Source of the DNA: a virus
DNA: 26,394 bases
Strand: one strand, 5' to 3'
IMG/VR virus record: IMGVR_UViG_3300025286_000116
Span: 1-26,394 of that record
Position 1 is the stretch's first letter. Each line of letters opens with the position of its first letter. The notes under the pieces are model-generated. The model saw only the letters and a list, made by a program, of their open reading frames with translations, was not told the DNA's origin and ran no database searches. This document shows positions 3,001 to 26,394 of the stretch, piece after piece. The translations under genes were made by a program, and so were the position numbers.

Positions 3001-3661
3001 CTACGCCGAGGACCGCACCGCCGGTTCCACCGATGGCGATATTCTTTGCCGTTCGGATGGGGTCTTCCCACGGGGCAGGACCACCAGAGGCCCAATCTAA
3101 CCCAACAGTTCCTGCGGCTCCGTGTCCCGCTGCTTGGAGCCCTGCCATTGCCAGTTTGCCGGTTTTGGCAAATGGAACCCCACCCAGTACACCGTGTGCG
3201 ATTGTCTCAGACGGGTTCCACTCATCACGCCCCTCAACCTTCTGAGCGAGCCAATCACCAATCCCTGACATCGCTGCGCCACCAAGCATCGCGCCACCAA
3301 CGGTGCCACCGGGTCCAAGGGCTGAGCCAAGAACCCCACCGACACCATACCCAACAATACCTGGAATTGTACGGAGTCCCAGGGCTGGAAGCGAGAACTC
3401 TGGTGTCTCTTCGGCATCTGTCTTTGGTATGGGTTCAGGTTCGGTCGTTGGGATGCCAGATGGTATCGGTGTGAGTTGAGGCGCACGGGCACGCGCACTC
3501 GCCAATGTGCTCATGGGGAGTGGTGTGTCGTAAATCTTCTGGTGCTGTTCTGGATGAGATTCAAGGAAGCGGTCGACTACAGTCTGGTCAGCGAGCCCCT
3601 GTAGATGGGCGTTCGCCCCACGAATCTTGTCAGCCGCTTCCTTGATGGAGTACTGTGCCAT
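1..3661 (-). CDS. Giant internal virion / polyvalent-type protein, LPD38-like, C-terminus beyond left edge
   Basis: Reading the minus strand from ATG at 3661 gives 1,220 codons without a stop up to base 1, so the gene is partial at its 3' end. A one-base gap separates it from the 38-aa gene upstream (TAG-T-ATG). Residues about 95-135 form a Gly/Ala-rich hydrophobic stretch (VGYGVGGVLGSALGPGG), followed by a Pro/Gly linker near 270 containing a run of six Gly. The middle is helical and charged. Residues 706-713 read VTNVARDW and residues 878-885 read FFNAQMQG. From memory these two signatures resemble the LPD38 family of large phage polyvalent proteins, which also occur in very large virion proteins of podoviruses. 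Its position after three other internal-type proteins suggests a T7 gp16-like ejected protein, which is inference. No transglycosylase motif is visible in the part seen. The reading frame is certain; the family assignment is moderate. Confidence 0.85.
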   Translation of the reverse strand, partial: MAQYSIKEAADKIRGANAHLQGLADQTVVDRFLESHPEQHQKIYDTPLPMSTLASARARAPQLTPIPSGIPTTEPEPIPKTDAEETPEFSLPALGLRTIPGIVGYGVGGVLGSALGPGGTVGGAMLGGAAMSGIGDWLAQKVEGRDEWNPSETIAHGVLGGVPFAKTGKLAMAGLQAAGHGAAGTVGLDWASGGPAPWEDPIRTAKNIAIGGTGGAVLGVGTQALMNRFLRAGGAPQVAKAVDELTPTPDMPQRTAATIDERIRQTTGGGGGGPAGQAPIIKPTGPTTTGPPKLRGQTAEGRQAQKIIDDIVESPVEPLGRVDRLIAQSDEAMNLSDPTRRSLYERVMGKIQDYKLPVRNYIKEIEKRFPEARRQPGSMSAADDMDLEIGGIYSKQQRATETIERHLRNVKEDGLNPAFRGIETDVNRLIVLDSMDHHVGILNERQLANFAKGKLDTTAMDGVFPQGFNAERVVAERVALQSSMSPEKWAQVKLRAQEIYDFNRETLDILRDSGRITPEFYAKLAKREGGYTPLLRFLDATEQGILTKSAQKANQSLGPLKKFKGSEKAMRNPREASLAYRHSALEEAGRNEAGRAFLRYHGTSAEMADAFPILREAGEDLPVTGRNFVAKTKEELDTQFGDVGGWSTFSVFDNGIEVNVAAPAYVTNAISLMHPQMASMVGEGALAFFGGITRRMATSANLGFSVTNVARDWVDMAILGRVLGKDNGNFWKFTSEWFSLLPQQLKRAFRDPRTAVRGRDAFLQAGAGGSTQAIEINPRGFLKIDELESAALNSWGKVKNTLDRKLFGTIEKFSNVLEENTKLAAWNMMTGTSGGRVGRKLSDEARRKVALEIRRYGGSPDFAVRGSQSRQYNALILFFNAQMQGIMRNVRGFGRLTEKGQRKRVGYLMAGVLGTELLRNQMNRAYVDSDGTPSMDRITDSDEENYFSFVIPFTETIDGVERYRILKMSKGHAARPIFNPVASLIRNADREVTEAGPQRGRRGAGQIAVDVASQFLPGSFNIRTDKPILREVARGIAASLNPILKIPIEQMQNRQMFSDIPMVPRRMESLSPSEQYLPGETNPAAIATAAALKKVGIDWSPMRIESGIQSAFPGPGEMLTGAAGATVQAATGELSPQEALTVAAEEVIDPIRRRFKGSPGDQLDRDQQSVFYEMLEKSTGAQALLKRYEMEGDLEGFKKAQEENHNLLVMRLPLNRIARK

Positions 3662-3662
3662 A

Positions 3663-3779
3663 CTAATAGCCACTTCTGCGGTATGTGAGTTTTCCGCCCG
3701 TGCGCTTTGCTGCTTTCTTTGCGCCAGCGACGGTCTTATACTTCGTGGGGCGCTTCCCCGGACGTTTCAATGTCGGCAT
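3663..3779 (-). CDS. 38-aa highly basic small protein
   Basis: This short gene lies between the 259-aa internal protein and the giant virion protein. The ATG at 3779 follows a near-perfect Shine-Dalgarno (AAAGGAGG) at 8-base spacing, the best in this part of the operon, and the stop TAG sits one base before the next ATG. The product starts MPTLKRPGKRPTKYKT and ends LTYRRSGY. It has 13 Lys/Arg in 38 residues and no acidic residue, so it should bind nucleic acid. A small basic protein inside an internal-protein cluster could coat DNA, help packaging or travel with ejected proteins; this is inference only. I recognise no family. Evidence for translation is the ribosome site, the tight fit between neighbours and the strongly biased composition. 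Confidence 0.75.
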   Translation of the reverse strand: MPTLKRPGKRPTKYKTVAGAKKAAKRTGGKLTYRRSGY

Positions 3780-3797
3780 TCCTCGAACCTCCTTTCC

Positions 3798-4577
3798 TTA
3801 GAATGGATTGTTGACGGTAGGTGTCAAATACGATCTAGTAACTTCATTTGCTTGAGCTTGAAGCTCGTTTGCATTGTCAAAGAGAACCTGAAGTTGCTGT
3901 TGTATCTCGATAGGGAGATTAGATATGTTGACAATCGTCTTGTTTCCAAATGGGTCTGTTTGCATCCGATTCTCCGCATAGAACTTACTGTATGCACCCC
4001 ACGCATTCTTTGCTGCGTTCTGTGCCACGGTCGCTCTCGATTGAGCACCTGTTTCTACGTCTTTTCCGATAGCTCGCGTTGCGGCATCTTGTTGTAGCTG
4101 AAGATTTCGGATTTGATACGGAGTCATTTCCTCATACTCGCGTTGCCTCGCCTCGCGGTCTAGTGCTGCTTCACCGGATCGCCATCCTTGTCGCAGTTGC
4201 TCTATTCGATGTGCTTCAGATTCAGGAACGGAATATATCCCTTCTGTGGCTGGAGCGATTGGTGGACTAAATTGAAGCCAGGGCTTGATCCCTGGAATGT
4301 CAGGAAGTGCTCCGGCAGAAATATCCCTTCCACGGTATTGAGTAAGAAAGTCCTGTACATCTTGTCGTTCAGCTTCACCCTGTCGATATGCTTCTGTGGC
4401 TCCAGTCGCGCGTATCTGTTCATCTAAGGCATCTTGTTGTAGCTGTCGTCCAGCCTCCCATTGGCTTGTTTCGCGGGCAACATCTTCCTGACGTATCCGC
4501 TCATCCCGGCTTTGCCGCCCAAGATTCGCAATCAGGTTCCCGATAGCCGTTACGCCAGTGCTTGCTCGAAATGCCAT
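3798..4577 (-). CDS. Internal virion-type protein, 259 aa, helical and Gln-rich
   Basis: The protein begins MAFRASTGVTAIGNLIANLG and is then almost entirely charged helix with many Gln, Arg and Glu (for example QWEAGRQLQQDALDEQIRA). There is a short Pro-rich break near residues 90-115 and a C-terminal Gln/Asn-rich helix (IEIQQQLQVLFDNANELQAQ). No enzyme motif or membrane segment is visible. The start lies 6 bases after the stop of the 415-aa gene, with a modest AGG-type ribosome site. The composition and the position in a run of Gln/Ala-rich proteins before a giant virion protein match the internal or ejection proteins of podoviruses (the slot of T7 gp14-gp16 or P22 gp7/gp16/gp20). This is assignment by context, not by homology. 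Confidence 0.7.
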   Translation of the reverse strand: MAFRASTGVTAIGNLIANLGRQSRDERIRQEDVARETSQWEAGRQLQQDALDEQIRATGATEAYRQGEAERQDVQDFLTQYRGRDISAGALPDIPGIKPWLQFSPPIAPATEGIYSVPESEAHRIEQLRQGWRSGEAALDREARQREYEEMTPYQIRNLQLQQDAATRAIGKDVETGAQSRATVAQNAAKNAWGAYSKFYAENRMQTDPFGNKTIVNISNLPIEIQQQLQVLFDNANELQAQANEVTRSYLTPTVNNPF

Positions 4578-5872: not shown

Positions 5873-7702
5873 TTACTGCAGCATACGAAGGTATGCTTGA
5901 TTGAGACCTTGTTCTCCGAGGACTCTATCGAGCGCGAGACGTTCGCGTTGGAGTGCTAAGCGGTCGGTGCCGAGATACCGCTGTAGGGCGAGGTTTTCGT
6001 CGAACTGACGACCACGCTCAGTGAGTCCTTGACGGTCGAGCCACTGAGACATGCGCGATACATCAAGGCCACCCCGTCCAAGGAGGTCAGCGAGTGCGCT
6101 CTGTGCGCTCGCTTGACGGAACTGCTCACCCTGCTGGTAGAGTTGCTGTTGTTGCAGGAAGCGGTCAATCAGGTCACTCTCGGCGGCTTGTCGACTTTGG
6201 AATTCTAACTGTTGCTGCTGCGCCTGTAGCTCTTCGCGCGTTAGGCCAAACTTCGCGGCCTGTTGGCCTTCCTGTGCTTGGAGTTCTTCTCGCGTTAGTC
6301 CAAGTTGTGCAGCACGCTGTTGGCTGGTTGCAGCTTCCTGTCGAGATGTCTCTCGTAACTCTTCACCCGTGAGTCCTGTGCGGAAGAGTTCTGCTGCACG
6401 TCCGGCCTGTCCTGTGAGGAACTGATTTGCGGCATCCATCGCCGCCAGTTCATCTGCACGGTTGGTCTGTGCTTGCTGGATGCTCAGGTCACGCGACTGG
6501 CGGAGGAGAGCATCAGCGGTATCTTGACGAATACCCTGCTCACGGGCGAGATGTCGACCACCCCCGAATGTGCCACGACCAGCAGCCCCGGCTGCTGATT
6601 CCTGAAGCATCGCTTCCTGTTGTGCGAGTGCTTGCTCTTTTTGCTGCTCTCGCATCTGGCTGACGACCTGGTCGGACATCACCCGGTTCCCCATGACGTC
6701 TCCTAGCAATCCACGTACTTGTCCTTCCACGATTTGCTGGTCAGGGGAGAGGAACTGTGTAATATCCCCTTCGCGGTAGCGATAATCAGGGATGGCGTCT
6801 TGAGAATACTGGTACGGGTTGTAGGTTTGGGAGTACTGGTATGGGTCATAGGTGGGGAGCCGGTCCATCGAGATTTCTCCCGGTGTGTACTCTGGTGTGT
6901 AAATCGTTGAAGGACCACTCCACTGTTCCCACGGAGGCATCTCAGCAATAGTGGACTGAGAGACCTGTGGTCCTGATGGTCCGGGTCCGGGTCCGGGTCC
7001 TCCACCAGGTCCAGGCGGGGGGGGATCTTTCACACAAATACTGTTGCCGTTCGGGTCCTGCTCTGAGTGATATCCATCGGGACAAGGAGGTGGTGGTGTC
7101 GTTGTTGGTTCGAGATTCCTTGGGGGTGAGTGAAGAAACTTCAGCATTTCCGAGTACTGGTATGGGTCGTCGATTCCTTTGCCACCCCCCTCGCCAATGC
7201 GTGGATCGAGGCTCTGGAACCAAGCATCACCTGGACCTTTGAACCGAGGGTCGATGTGTCCCATTCCTTCTTGGAAGTCACCCACCCCGGCCTGTGCGTT
7301 TGCGACACGCTGTTCTTCAGCAAGTCGCTGTCGCTCTTCAGGCGTGCGTGATTGATACAGAGCTTGCCAGCGGTTCCACCCTTGATATGGTGAACCTGCG
7401 GTAAGTGGCGTTGGTGGCTCCGGGCCACCCTGTTCACCAACGGTCTGGACTTGCTGCGTTGCCGATGTCTGCGGAGGCAGCTGACCGAAACCAGCGTGTG
7501 GTTCGCTTCTTCTAGGTTTCGGGGCTGGAGGCAATGCACCAGTCTGTGTACCACTCTGTGGGCGACCTCCTCCTGAAGACTGTTGTGTCATCCCACCAAT
7601 CGGTGTTTGTCGCGGACCAGGACTAGGCCGCTGGAGGTAGGGCGTCGTTTGGTCGTAGCCCTTGGGTTTTCCGTACTGATCAATAATGTTGGCAGTAGGC
7701 AT
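5873..7702 (-). CDS. Gln/Pro-rich internal virion protein with short repeats, 609 aa
   Basis: The N-terminal third is Pro/Gly/Gln-rich and looks disordered, with a Pro-Gly run near residues 225-245 (PPPPGPGGGPGPGPGPSGP). Next come Tyr-rich repeats of the form PYQYS (one near residue 180, two near 285-300). The C-terminal half is Gln/Ala/Arg-rich helix with three GLTxEEL units at about residues 442-495, the last two 18 residues apart. One Cys pair (CPDGYHSEQ...SICV) sits near residues 207-223. There is no catalytic motif and no membrane helix. It directly follows the endolysin, with 3 bases between stop and ATG. Composition and place in the internal-protein cluster suggest an internal or ejection protein. 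The role is inferred, but the open frame is secure. Confidence 0.75.
   Translation of the reverse strand: MPTANIIDQYGKPKGYDQTTPYLQRPSPGPRQTPIGGMTQQSSGGGRPQSGTQTGALPPAPKPRRSEPHAGFGQLPPQTSATQQVQTVGEQGGPEPPTPLTAGSPYQGWNRWQALYQSRTPEERQRLAEEQRVANAQAGVGDFQEGMGHIDPRFKGPGDAWFQSLDPRIGEGGGKGIDDPYQYSEMLKFLHSPPRNLEPTTTPPPPCPDGYHSEQDPNGNSICVKDPPPPGPGGGPGPGPGPSGPQVSQSTIAEMPPWEQWSGPSTIYTPEYTPGEISMDRLPTYDPYQYSQTYNPYQYSQDAIPDYRYREGDITQFLSPDQQIVEGQVRGLLGDVMGNRVMSDQVVSQMREQQKEQALAQQEAMLQESAAGAAGRGTFGGGRHLAREQGIRQDTADALLRQSRDLSIQQAQTNRADELAAMDAANQFLTGQAGRAAELFRTGLTGEELRETSRQEAATSQQRAAQLGLTREELQAQEGQQAAKFGLTREELQAQQQQLEFQSRQAAESDLIDRFLQQQQLYQQGEQFRQASAQSALADLLGRGGLDVSRMSQWLDRQGLTERGRQFDENLALQRYLGTDRLALQRERLALDRVLGEQGLNQAYLRMLQ
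6228..6378 (-). repeat. GLTxEEL repeat units within the 609-aa virion gene
   Basis: Three short units encode GLTGEEL, GLTREEL and GLTREEL in one frame. The last two lie 54 bases (18 codons) apart and share the following LQAQ. The DNA is also similar between the last two units, so this looks like a recent in-frame duplication inside a coiled-coil region. Confidence 0.7.
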
Positions 7703-23517: not shown

Positions 23518-23628
23518 CTATTGTGTACCCTTGGGCTGACCCCCACTCACGCTGCCTGCGCTCACGGAGGACGAGTTCGGTTTGTTGCTGTTGGGCTTGA
23601 CTGCTCCCATCTTTGGGGTGTGTGGCAT
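23518..23628 (-). CDS. 36-aa Ser/Pro/Gly-rich protein after terminase
   Basis: The ATG at 23628 shares one base with the stop of the large terminase (TAATG), and AGGAG lies six bases before it, a strong ribosome site. The product starts MPHTPKMGAVKPNSNKP, continues with Ser/Gly residues and ends GQPKGTQ; it looks disordered. I recognise no family. The translation signals are the evidence; the protein itself gives no functional hint. Confidence 0.55.
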   Translation of the reverse strand: MPHTPKMGAVKPNSNKPNSSSVSAGSVSGGQPKGTQ

Positions 23629-25250
23629 TAGCCTCTCCTACGCCGTTTACGGCGCTTCCGTACAATTTGCTTCATGCACTTCTGGTGTACGTTCAGTTCT
23701 TCGACATACGACGATGATCCCTTGGGCACGACTGGCACAAGCCCAATGACCTTGTTGGCGCACAACACCACAACTGTGGCGAGGTCATCGTGCTGCCCAA
23801 CGCGCGCACCGATGCGGACATTACCTCCTGAGCCGATATGCTTTTCGATGCCCAGAAGTTCCTGACGCTGCTCTTTATTGTGGAGGAGGTGTGCGCGGGT
23901 CGTACGAAGTAGCGTTTGGAATGACCCATAAATCCTTGCCTTACTGTTGGCAGTGAAGTCCTGACCCTGAATCACAAAGCCCCGGTCTAGGGCCAGTTCC
24001 TTCAGCGCTTCCAACTGATATTGGTCGGAGTAGACGTTCACAACGTGGTATTCGTTGATTTTCTGGGCAATCTCATCAAGAATGACGGCGGGGTTGAGTG
24101 AAACTCCTTTTTCCGGTTTCCAGCTTTGTATCCAATCTTGGACAAAGCCGCGTGCGGGTTCATAGTGTCCGATACAAAACGCGAACTTGTCCTTCCGAAA
24201 CGCCGGGTCGAGCGCGGCGATGTAGAATGGTTTCTGGTCCTCCGGGTGCCCACTACGTGGGTAGGCTTCGCGCCACTGTGGGGCATTGTGCATCGCGTCG
24301 TCGAGCAGCGTATCGGGAAACATCCCCGAGACCGCATCGACGAACTGGGCGCGCACTTCACGGATATAGGCGTCGGGGTCCTTGAGTTGCGTGCGCGTAA
24401 ACCAGCGACGGTCGAGAATCGGGTTCTCAATGGCTGGTGTCGGTGCGTGGTAGACCACGGTTTGCCGAAAGCGCTCGCGGTCCTCATCATCTGTGGTGAG
24501 TTTCCGCCCTCCGGTCCCGGCGTTGTGCGCGGCCCAGAGAATCCCCTCCTTACTCCAGGGTGTGGACGCCCCAAGGAGTTTGTGGTCGGGAAACTGGATC
24601 TGTGCGTACTCGACCGCACGGATGACCTCGTAGTCCGGGTTCGCCGCTTCCTCTTCGGAATACCAGAACCCCACCTCGTCACACGCCACAATCGGTACAG
24701 CGAAACCCCGAAAGGACCGCCGTGTGGGGGGCGATGGCGCGATGACGTGCCCGTTCTTCAGGAGAATCCCATCAGCGTTGGACTTCTCTACCTCATTTTT
24801 GAGGATGGGTGATTCATCTAAGATGCCCATCACAAACTCATCAAGAATGGATTGTGCGAGGGGCAGCTTCTGCGCGACGATGAACGACCGGCACTTTTGA
24901 CGCTTGGCGACGTAGCGCATGTGCCCACCCATCGAAGCTTCGTAGGCGAGAACGAACGAGAGAAACTTGTCGGTCTTACCACTCCGTCGACCCAGGATGG
25001 CCCACGCGGAGTGATATTCATTGGGGGTGTAGGTCACCTCTGTGACGGGCGTGACGGGAAAGCCGAGGTCGTCGAAGGTCGCGCCCCCCTGAAGGACGCT
25101 CCAGTGGTAGCGCTCCTCCTCTGTGTCGAGGGGGAGCCCATAGAGCGCTTTCAGCATGACCTGCTGTGGGCCGCTCATCGAGACCCAGGTGCGTTTGAGG
25201 AGGCGTGGTTCGTGAATTGCTTCGGTGAACGTAATGCGCTCAGCAATCAT
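23628..25250 (-). CDS. terL: Terminase large subunit (TerL), 540 aa
   Basis: This is the packaging motor ATPase and headful or cos nuclease. The ATPase part has Walker A GRRSGKT (residues 87-93), Walker B IVACDE (187-192, Asp191/Glu192) and the coupling motif LLGASTPW (225-232). The RNase H-like nuclease shows Asp348 in IAALDPAF, Asp409 in NVYSDQYQ and the Asp488-Asp489 pair in GQHDDLA. The tail is very basic (IVRKRRKRRRRG) and may contact DNA or portal. The ATG overlaps the stop of a nested 65-codon frame (ATGA) and has no clear Shine-Dalgarno, so it depends on coupling. All catalytic residues are present, so it is likely active. Confidence 0.95.
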   Translation of the reverse strand: MIAERITFTEAIHEPRLLKRTWVSMSGPQQVMLKALYGLPLDTEEERYHWSVLQGGATFDDLGFPVTPVTEVTYTPNEYHSAWAILGRRSGKTDKFLSFVLAYEASMGGHMRYVAKRQKCRSFIVAQKLPLAQSILDEFVMGILDESPILKNEVEKSNADGILLKNGHVIAPSPPTRRSFRGFAVPIVACDEVGFWYSEEEAANPDYEVIRAVEYAQIQFPDHKLLGASTPWSKEGILWAAHNAGTGGRKLTTDDEDRERFRQTVVYHAPTPAIENPILDRRWFTRTQLKDPDAYIREVRAQFVDAVSGMFPDTLLDDAMHNAPQWREAYPRSGHPEDQKPFYIAALDPAFRKDKFAFCIGHYEPARGFVQDWIQSWKPEKGVSLNPAVILDEIAQKINEYHVVNVYSDQYQLEALKELALDRGFVIQGQDFTANSKARIYGSFQTLLRTTRAHLLHNKEQRQELLGIEKHIGSGGNVRIGARVGQHDDLATVVVLCANKVIGLVPVVPKGSSSYVEELNVHQKCMKQIVRKRRKRRRRG

Positions 25251-25444
25251 CCGAGATGGAGCTTATTGTTCAGTGTCATCTGTTCGACGGTTTGCCTGAG
25301 CGAGAATGTCGCTTGTCGTTCGGAGTCCATGACCGCGCCCTTGATCTCCTGCTGGCCGAGCGTCGTCGTTGCTTGATACTTCCCCGGCGATACTGCTGTG
25401 ACTCGGGACGAGAAGTTGAGGTCCGGTGGGACGTTCTTGATCAT
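25247..25444 (-). CDS. 65-aa gene nested out of frame in the 3' end of terS
   Basis: The frame starts at ATG 25444 inside the small terminase gene and ends with TGA overlapping the terL ATG (ATGA). The product begins MIKNVPPDLNFSSRVTAV and includes GKYQATTTLGQQEIKGAV and SLRQTVEQMTLNNKLHLG. In the overlap I count GC at third codon positions of about 72% in this frame but only about 42% in the terS frame, while terL and the first part of terS are GC3-rich by eye. A weak GAGAG lies 10 bases before the ATG. It could be a separate small protein, or the real end of TerS reached by frameshift. The function is unknown. Confidence 0.6.
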   Translation of the reverse strand: MIKNVPPDLNFSSRVTAVSPGKYQATTTLGQQEIKGAVMDSERQATFSLRQTVEQMTLNNKLHLG

Positions 25445-25874
25445 ATTGTTGTCGCTCTCGGATATAACCAGAGAGAGACCGTTCGACCTCCCCCGGTTCT
25501 AGGGGTGTTGGCCTATTCTGCCCCAGAAGTGTGTGTGTACCCTTGAGAATCTTAAAGGCTTCACCGACCTTGGGATTCTCACTCTGTAGCTCGCATTCGA
25601 GCTTTTTCTTGACGACGTCGAGTGCGAGGGCGGTCACATCGCGGAGCCGGTCGTTGAGTTCCTCAAACATTCCTTCGTCCTTGGCAACTGCAAGGTACCG
25701 ACTGACAGTCTTGACGCTCAGCCCGAACTGCGTGGCGATCTTCGGGATCGACTTGCCGTGCAGGACACGTTCGACGACCATCAGAGCCATGCGTGCGCGA
25801 CGATGACCCGACCTGCGACGAGCCGGAGGCGTGCTCAGGGGGGGAGGAGGCTGGCTCGTCGAGGTCGAATCCAT
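25263..25874 (-). CDS. terS: Terminase small subunit (TerS), 203 aa
   Basis: This gene lies just before the large terminase and should recognise the packaging site. Residues 1-28 are Pro/Arg-rich (PPPPLSTPPARRRSGHRRAR). Residues 42-62 form a helix-turn-helix (SIPKIATQFGLSVKTVSRYL), followed by oligomerisation-type helices (LNDRLRDVTALALDVVKKKL). The last 60 residues are Gly/Asp-rich and low in hydrophobics, and their codon use is poor because another frame runs there. The start lacks a strong ribosome site; the leader holds a hairpin instead. The HTH plus position support the call. It could alternatively be a small regulator, but the helix plan is usual for TerS. Confidence 0.8.
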   Translation of the reverse strand: MDSTSTSQPPPPLSTPPARRRSGHRRARMALMVVERVLHGKSIPKIATQFGLSVKTVSRYLAVAKDEGMFEELNDRLRDVTALALDVVKKKLECELQSENPKVGEAFKILKGTHTLLGQNRPTPLEPGEVERSLSGYIRERQQYDQERPTGPQLLVPSHSSIAGEVSSNDDARPAGDQGRGHGLRTTSDILAQANRRTDDTEQ

Positions 25875-25878
25875 TCAT

Positions 25879-25919
25879 AAAGGTGCAGACCCCGCCCTCA
25901 TCGTATTGTGTCTGCCTTT
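25879..25919 (-). promoter_or_regulatory. Leader hairpin directly upstream of terS
   Basis: In the minus-strand RNA, AAAGGCAGAC (from 25919-25910) pairs with GTCTG-CA-CCTTT (from 25890-25879). This gives ten base pairs with a two-base bulge and a 19-base loop that includes GAGGGCGGGG. The 3' arm ends four bases before the terS ATG at 25874, so the stem may hide or position the start. No riboswitch family fits. Confidence 0.45.
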
Positions 25920-25969
25920 GCCTGGTGTTCAGCCTTATGGCGGCGTGAGGTGCAGGGCGATTTCAACTA

Positions 25970-25998
25970 ATCATATCACAAGATGTAGTGTGTGTCAA
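25970..25998 (-). promoter_or_regulatory. Late-operon sigma-70-like promoter, TTGACA-17-TATGAT
   Basis: On the minus strand TTGACA (25993-25998) and TATGAT (25970-25975) are exactly 17 bases apart. Transcription would start near 25963, giving an 89-base leader with a hairpin before terS. The -35 box is one arm of a palindrome, so repressor control is likely. It is the best candidate for the main promoter of the minus-strand operon. Confidence 0.6.
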
Positions 25999-26009
25999 GT
26001 TTTTGACAC
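25992..26009. promoter_or_regulatory. Operator-like palindrome GTGTCAA-GTTT-TTGACAC
   Basis: A perfect inverted repeat with 7-base arms and a 4-base spacer covers the -35 box of the late promoter. A third half-site (TTGACAC, 26014-26020) follows 11 bases later. This is the arrangement expected for a dimeric repressor or activator, whose gene is not in this window. Confidence 0.55.
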
Positions 26010-26273
26010 CCGTTTGACACCCAAAACCGCCGTGGATGTCATTTCGTGTCAAAATTCTGTAAGTGCTTGTGAACACAGGAGTTATAGATGCCATGAAAAT
26101 GAGGTGTGGGCGAAAACTCGATGTCAAAAATTTCCACAACAGAGAGTAGTTAAACGAGCGTTTGACCACTACAGGTGGTAGAGTTTGAAAATTTTGTCAA
26201 ATGGCGACATGGAGGGGCTGTTTTCGTGTCAAGGATTAACTACTAGAAAACAAAGGGGTTATGGGTTTTGACA
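25993..26273. repeat. Eight TGTCAA/TTGACA hexamers in 280 bases
   Basis: Exact hexamers begin at 25993, 26003, 26014, 26047, 26122, 26195, 26227 and 26268, in both orientations; near matches occur at 26162, 26327 and 26337. Spacings are 10, 11, 33, 75, 73, 32 and 41 bases, all near whole turns of B-DNA at 10.5 bases per turn. They may be operator half-sites, origin iterons or a terminase recognition site. Confidence 0.6.
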
Positions 26274-26296
26274 GGGGTTTTTCGACGATCTATATA
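26268..26296 (+). promoter_or_regulatory. Candidate rightward promoter, TTGACA-17-TATATA
   Basis: On the plus strand TTGACA (26268-26273) is followed after 17 bases by TATATA (26291-26296). The -10 is imperfect. It would read out of the window to the right, opposite to the late operon, so an early gene block may start there. The -35 is also one of the repeated hexamers. Confidence 0.4.
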
Positions 26297-26310
26297 TAGG
26301 TAAACCTATA
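26295..26310. repeat. Perfect palindrome TATAGGT-AA-ACCTATA
   Basis: Seven-base arms with a two-base spacer lie at or just after the first rightward -10 box and upstream of the second. It is unlike the TGTCAA family, so it may be an operator for a different protein. Confidence 0.5.
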
Positions 26311-26336
26311 GAGAGACGTAGACTCCTGACAAATTT

Positions 26337-26366
26337 TTGACGTGCGAATTTCATACCCTCTATTAT
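26337..26366 (+). promoter_or_regulatory. Candidate rightward promoter, TTGACG-18-TATTAT
   Basis: The plus-strand boxes TTGACG (26337-26342) and TATTAT (26361-26366) each match the consensus at five of six positions, with an 18-base spacer. It points off the right edge, so the gene it would drive is not seen. It is the better of the two rightward candidates by its -10. Confidence 0.45.
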
Positions 26367-26394
26367 ATACAGGGGTGGGGTAGGGGTCGTGAGG

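Follow-up and report, generated by a model that had tools for sequence, protein, structure and literature searches.

A hexamer array beside a phage terS gene as a possible initiator-binding part of an IHF-organised replication origin

The window analysed here, a 26.4-kb virus record without end repeats, contains a genuine cluster of eight copies of one hexamer beside terS. By sequence comparison this cluster is well supported as a protein-binding array, because it stays in place in relatives while its word changes by lineage, and we consider the chances about even that it forms the initiator-binding (iteron) part of an IHF-organised replication origin. A sequence-only reading had named a repressor array, origin iterons and a packaging (pac) site as candidates; a protein-binding array is well supported in general terms, and of the three candidates origin iterons currently fit best. 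For most environmental phages the replication origin has yet to be located. If the origin reading is true, the combination of an IHF-like dyad and a locally enriched hexamer would allow probable origins to be found in many uncultured phages, and initiator-iteron specificity switching would become testable by comparison.

Hexamer cluster upstream of terS

Exact matches to TTGACA/TGTCAA occurred at 25993 (−), 26003 (+), 26014 (+), 26047 (−), 26122 (−), 26195 (−), 26227 (−) and 26268 (+), so that the sequence-only reading was right both in its eight exact hexamers in 280 bases (25993–26273) and in the start-to-start distances of 10, 11, 33, 75, 73, 32 and 41; TGACA pentamers beyond these eight lie at 26037 (−) and 26327 (+). 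The scan of all 26.4 kb found 18 copies, an ordinary total (shuffle mean 14.6), and the finding is therefore one of clustering, with 8 of the 18 falling within 281 bp. Dinucleotide-preserving shuffles (3000 runs) of the 520-bp gap upstream of terS (25875–26394) gave a mean of 0.52 copies of TTGACA/TGTCAA and never more than 4; whichever hexamer was counted, the shuffles produced at most 7. In none of 30 Markov copies of the full window did any hexamer occur more than 6 times per 281-bp span. The gap is AT-richer (44% GC) than the rest of the window (56% GC). A 23-base piece of the array had no exact match among the viral contigs. Motif words and array limits, here and below, were picked by eye from k-mer counts.

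The main genes of the window run leftward, beginning with terS (25263–25874, minus strand; 203 aa, with an N-terminal HTH) and terL (23628–25250, minus strand; 540 aa), followed by portal and capsid genes, whose products have cultured-phage relatives at only about 21–29% identity, mostly phages of Actinobacteria. TerL alignments scanned against genome contigs returned no relatives. The contig extends 520 bp beyond the start of terS, so that genes of the early region, as well as any initiator, lie off it. A consensus-like terS promoter is predicted from the sequence at 25970–25998 (−), as TTGACA (25993–25998)-N17-TATGAT (25970–25975), and is kept in L009, the sister contig described below, as TTGACA-N17-TATAGT. 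The statement that no annotated feature explains the hexamers was thus not quite accurate, the copy at 25993–25998 (−) being the −35 box of this predicted promoter. A weak candidate promoter, likewise read from the sequence, points away from terS at 26337–26366 (+; TTGACG-N18-TATTAT), and similar sequence is present in L011. The far array edge is marked by a putative palindromic element of the CCC-TATATA-GGG type (26356–26375), and relatives have comparable elements in this position.

The word TTGACA is the sigma-70 −35 consensus, and with one copy fitting a promoter the gap could be an AT-rich promoter region in which the repeats are merely the −35 boxes of several promoters. The other copies, however, have no good −10 at about 17 bp by inspection, and relatives carry words at the same place that are not −35 words (TGAAA, TGAACC); this explanation is disfavoured, and we regard it as highly improbable.

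Arrays at the same place in relatives

The sister contig L009 (TerL 89%) contains six hexamer copies within its 353 bp. The segment CTACCACCTGTAGTGGTYAAACGC, at 26158–26181 in the window and 58–81 in L009, is strongly conserved within the array and contains the near-palindrome ACCACCTGTAGTGGT. G001 and G002 (L015–L018; TerL 56% to the window) are one phage with different break points, and their contigs join into a circle of about 57.7 kb, so that the genome is circular or circularly permuted. Its array word is ATGTGTCATG, and all five ATGACACAT of the 57.6-kb G001 genome sit in the gap upstream of terS; from this gap the late genes run out on one strand, and most early genes occupy the opposite one. 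This genome encodes an integrase, PolA, an exonuclease and an AAA_25 helicase. An attP site (Int arm sites plus IHF) was set aside because the G001 integrase gene lies about 15 kb from the array.

About 14 phages with related terminases have an array upstream of terS, the repeated word varying by lineage (TTGACA, ATGACACAT, TGACACAC, CTGACAG, TGACAGAC, TGAAA, TGAACC, GTGAACATT); these include TerL relatives at 37–48% identity, in which the words are other than that of the window. No clear array was seen in L020 and L033. The gene common to all 15 of the 15 upstream regions compared was terS, the loci having been found through TerL; relatives were reached via TerL or via the dyad, and "beside terS" and "has dyad" are thus partly built into the samples. 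In L023, an ORF (3315–4004, −) with a C-terminus that resembles an HNH endonuclease by eye is inserted between array and terS, and a TTGACACA site falls within the promoter predicted for this ORF, which is apparently absent from the related L025.

IHF-like dyads between the hexamers

A 25-bp dyad, TAAGTNNTTGATTCTAAAGGASTTA, was found interleaved with the hexamers in one to four copies, often 75–80 bp apart. The two TT/AA steps of the dyad are 9 bp apart, and the kinks in IHF-bound DNA are also 9 bp apart. The left half of the dyad, YAANNNNTTGATW, is the reverse complement of the IHF consensus WATCAANNNNTTR (PMC10380432). Exact matches to this consensus numbered 20 in 9.6 kb of array gaps versus 6 in 247 kb elsewhere in the same loci, with 0.38 expected from shuffles; the dyad was spotted before this count was made, and the IHF consensus itself is independent of it. 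The window array contains no exact match to the consensus. It holds a degenerate IHF-like dyad at 26060–26084 (+; TAAGTGCTTGTGAACACAGGAGTTA), with a homologue at 155–179 in L009, and a second, weaker candidate at 26237–26261 (−; TAACCCCTTTGTTTTCTAGTAGTTA, 9.9 bits). Because the former has two mismatches to the consensus, we infer rather than observe IHF binding there. As judged from sequence, the conserved organisation is one of hexamers interleaved with IHF-like dyads about 75–80 bp apart.

The same dyad is present in the IncW plasmid R7K, in the gap beside trwA, which is the oriT region. Plasmid R388 is, like R7K, an IncW plasmid. IHF binds the oriT of R388 (PMC3264647). The dyad alone was rejected as a mark of origins, as dyads also occur in such oriT-like plasmid gaps. 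In plasmid BPP5P1 (L202), an IHF-like dyad at 7001–7027 lies just before a mobilization-protein gene and after T4SS genes, as at the IncW oriT. The dyad core had no match in the text of the literature searched. A pattern scan for this core, TTGATTCTAAAGGASTTA, hit 110 viral contigs, far above our own chance estimate, some with arrays and many without an obvious one.

Helical phasing of the sites

The phasing test, in which the period was free to vary between 10.2 and 10.8 bp, covered 16 arrays. The window array was phased (best-period R 0.89, p about 0.005), as was that of L009 (p about 0.01; 0.011), whose sites are homologous to those of the window and not independent of them. Among the 14 other arrays, 13 were unphased (p 0.12–1.0), the sole exception being that of Flyfo podovirus Tbat2_2 (p 0.025); phasing is therefore not the conserved feature, and with 16 arrays tested the hits do not support a general rule. 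The proposal that bound proteins would sit on one DNA face thus fits the window and L009 and is not supported as an organising principle. The 33-75-73 gaps are kept in L009. Phasing in the window may be locally relevant, or may be a by-product of the 73–75-bp unit length.

The same composite in unrelated phages

Arrays of other words were found beside the dyad, namely GGGACA (11 copies in L090, 8 in L145), TGACACG (11 copies in L075), ATGTCACA (L104) and TGACCC (L079). In L145, 8 of 29 GGGACA copies lie in 260 bp, and the array starts directly behind a gene with Prim-Pol, AAA_25 and a C-terminal HTH, 16 kb from TerL. The arrays of L090 and L104 lie inside the structural cluster. Flyfo podovirus Tbat2_2 and Morganella phage Henu15 each carry a 400-bp module twice, 14 kb apart and with copies 92–96% identical, in which TGCAACA sites and dyads lie on both sides of an AT-rich core, without the promoter. 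Flyfo encodes a D5-type primase-helicase, and Henu15 has a protein of the same size in the same position.

These loci bear on the idea of a lambda cosB-type site for initiating packaging, in which TerS would bind the hexamers beside its own gene with IHF bending the DNA between them. A terS homologue adjoins every array of the window's family, and of the 34 dyads found in one locus with a TerL, 30 are on its upstream side; the terS-adjacent sample is, however, biased, because its loci were found through TerL, and the arrays of L145, L090 and L104 lie away from terminase genes. In lambda itself, cosB adjoins the TerS gene and contains three sites for TerS that differ in orientation, two of which have an IHF site between them (PMC4669245). 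It shares with the window the TerS-adjacent position, the short mixed-orientation sites and the IHF site in between, but the arrays described here have 6–11 sites and 1–4 dyads and in other phages are duplicated (the two Flyfo and Henu15 copies) or distant from the terminase. Sigma-70 region 4 and resolvase HTH models give weak matches to the TerS HTH, and L032 and L036 agree in both TerS recognition helix and word. In contrast, L029 and L041 have the same helix (CSVDTVERTLTWA) and different words (TGAAA versus GTGAACATT), and L028 and L029 have the same word and different helices, so that the match fails in two of the three informative pairs, few as these are. G001 and G002 assemble through the array region as a circle. 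Contig ends near arrays were discarded as a sign of cos ends, since their positions are scattered and assembly could have been broken by the variable repeats. Taken together, we consider a cosB-type site unlikely.

An operator array for a phage repressor or an early/late switch at divergent promoters, with IHF looping as in Mu or L5, would fit the position between the predicted terS promoter and the candidate divergent one, with one site as a −35 box. The G001 integrase, the variation of the words in the manner of immunity specificities, and the arrays of L090 and L104, which precede genes within the structural cluster, point the same way. However, most sites in most relatives are well upstream of the terS promoter, at widely varying distances from it; the early region of L029 has what is probably a separate palindromic operator family (TTTTGGGACATCATGTCCCAAA), the duplicated Flyfo module lacks the promoter, and no repressor was identified. 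An operator function is accordingly unlikely in our estimate.

Candidate initiators and duplex stability

A search of 16 records found AAA_25 helicases in 8, among them G001 and those from which L028, L029, L181 and L042 derive. A phage-encoded candidate initiator with a DNA-binding domain was seen in L145 and, weakly, in L160. For the helicases of G001, L028, L029 and L181, Pfam did not recognise an HTH in the C-terminal tail, where one was suggested by eye only; L028 and L029, which share the word TGAAA, have similar tails (GISHSTAYRKL and GISQSNAYRRI). The least stable 60-mer lies in or near the array for most loci. In the window a low-stability 60-mer lies beside the array, without a clear AT-rich core between two iteron sets; two sets flanking an AT-rich region are clear in Flyfo and Henu15. 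The short site is clustered at one locus in the window (8 copies in 281 bp), in G001 (all five ATGACACAT) and in L145, and at two loci in Flyfo.

A replication origin as the preferred reading

We favour an origin because the array occupies a homologous place with a lineage-specific word, in relatives down to 37–42% TerL identity, and because of the IHF-consensus enrichment in relatives, the L145 neighbourhood, the Flyfo/Henu15 module, the likeness to PICI origins, the use of IHF at R6K and pSC101, the low duplex stability and the AAA_25 helicases of more complete relatives. In G001 the GC skew reaches its minimum no more than about 2 kb from the array, which adds to this but is not decisive, as skew is confounded by gene orientation and follows gene direction in Flyfo and Henu15. 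Counting against an origin are the position of the array in the window's family, beside terS and not a helicase gene, and the early genes of the window being off the contig, as well as the four helicase tails without a Pfam HTH and the window's lack of an exact IHF consensus or a clear AT-rich core.

The origin would lie in the gap between the late operon, starting with terS, and presumed divergent early genes. The binder, which we infer to be a replication initiator encoded by the phage, would probably be a helicase or primase-helicase of the hexameric type, equipped with a DNA-binding tail, and would occupy the short sites in either orientation. Bending at the interleaved 25-bp dyads, which would be the work of the host's IHF or a protein like it, would gather the sites into a compact nucleoprotein complex that in turn melts the neighbouring AT-rich DNA. 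The recognised word would change with the initiator and hence differ between lineages, and the site shared with the −35 box of the terS promoter might couple initiator binding to late transcription.

More tentatively, and with our confidence short of even, such arrays could represent a widespread class of cis-element in many unrelated phages, with rapidly changing initiator words set in a conserved scaffold of near-symmetric IHF sites at terS-adjacent, helicase-adjacent or structural-gene positions, the word switching with the DNA-binding domain of the initiator. Word switching in this class is possibly under selection by origin-targeting or competing elements.

Comparison with known systems

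The ori1/crr of phage P4, which works with the alpha protein, has short iterons in both orientations in two separated arrays. The P4 system resembles the arrays described here in these respects and in the D5-type primase-helicase of Flyfo; the window's family, in contrast, encodes AAA_25 helicases and not D5 proteins, and the words differ. The Rep-ori of PICI/SaPI elements is similar in having several short iterons around an AT-rich region and a primase/helicase-type initiator (PMC6092414), whereas here a full-size phage carries the array, next to terS and interspersed with several IHF-like dyads, and two flanking iteron sets are clear only in Flyfo and Henu15, not in the window. At the R6K gamma and pSC101 origins, initiator sites and IHF are needed for efficient opening (PMC5043065), but their iterons are long direct repeats, unlike the irregularly spaced hexamers in both orientations found here.

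The stoperators of Cluster A mycobacteriophages are likewise lineage-specific short asymmetric sites; they are spread genome-wide, mostly in one orientation (PMC6550527, PMC9283540), whereas the sites here are clustered and in both orientations. In the RepA/ori modules of Vibrio PLE, iterons and the initiator DNA-binding domain swap together (PMC8263062); the iterons there are semi-palindromic and about 30 bp long.

Palindromes in relatives

A CCCC-TATA-GGGG palindrome lies at the distal array edge in L011 (3320–3340) and also in L030, L032 and L036, and might serve as an early promoter, as a melting site or in the manner of cosN. The 51-kb relative L029 carries, in its early region, the perfect palindrome TTTTGGGACATCATGTCCCAAA(A) at 355, 903 and 1215, with an imperfect copy at 1976, and this family is probably of the repressor-operator type.
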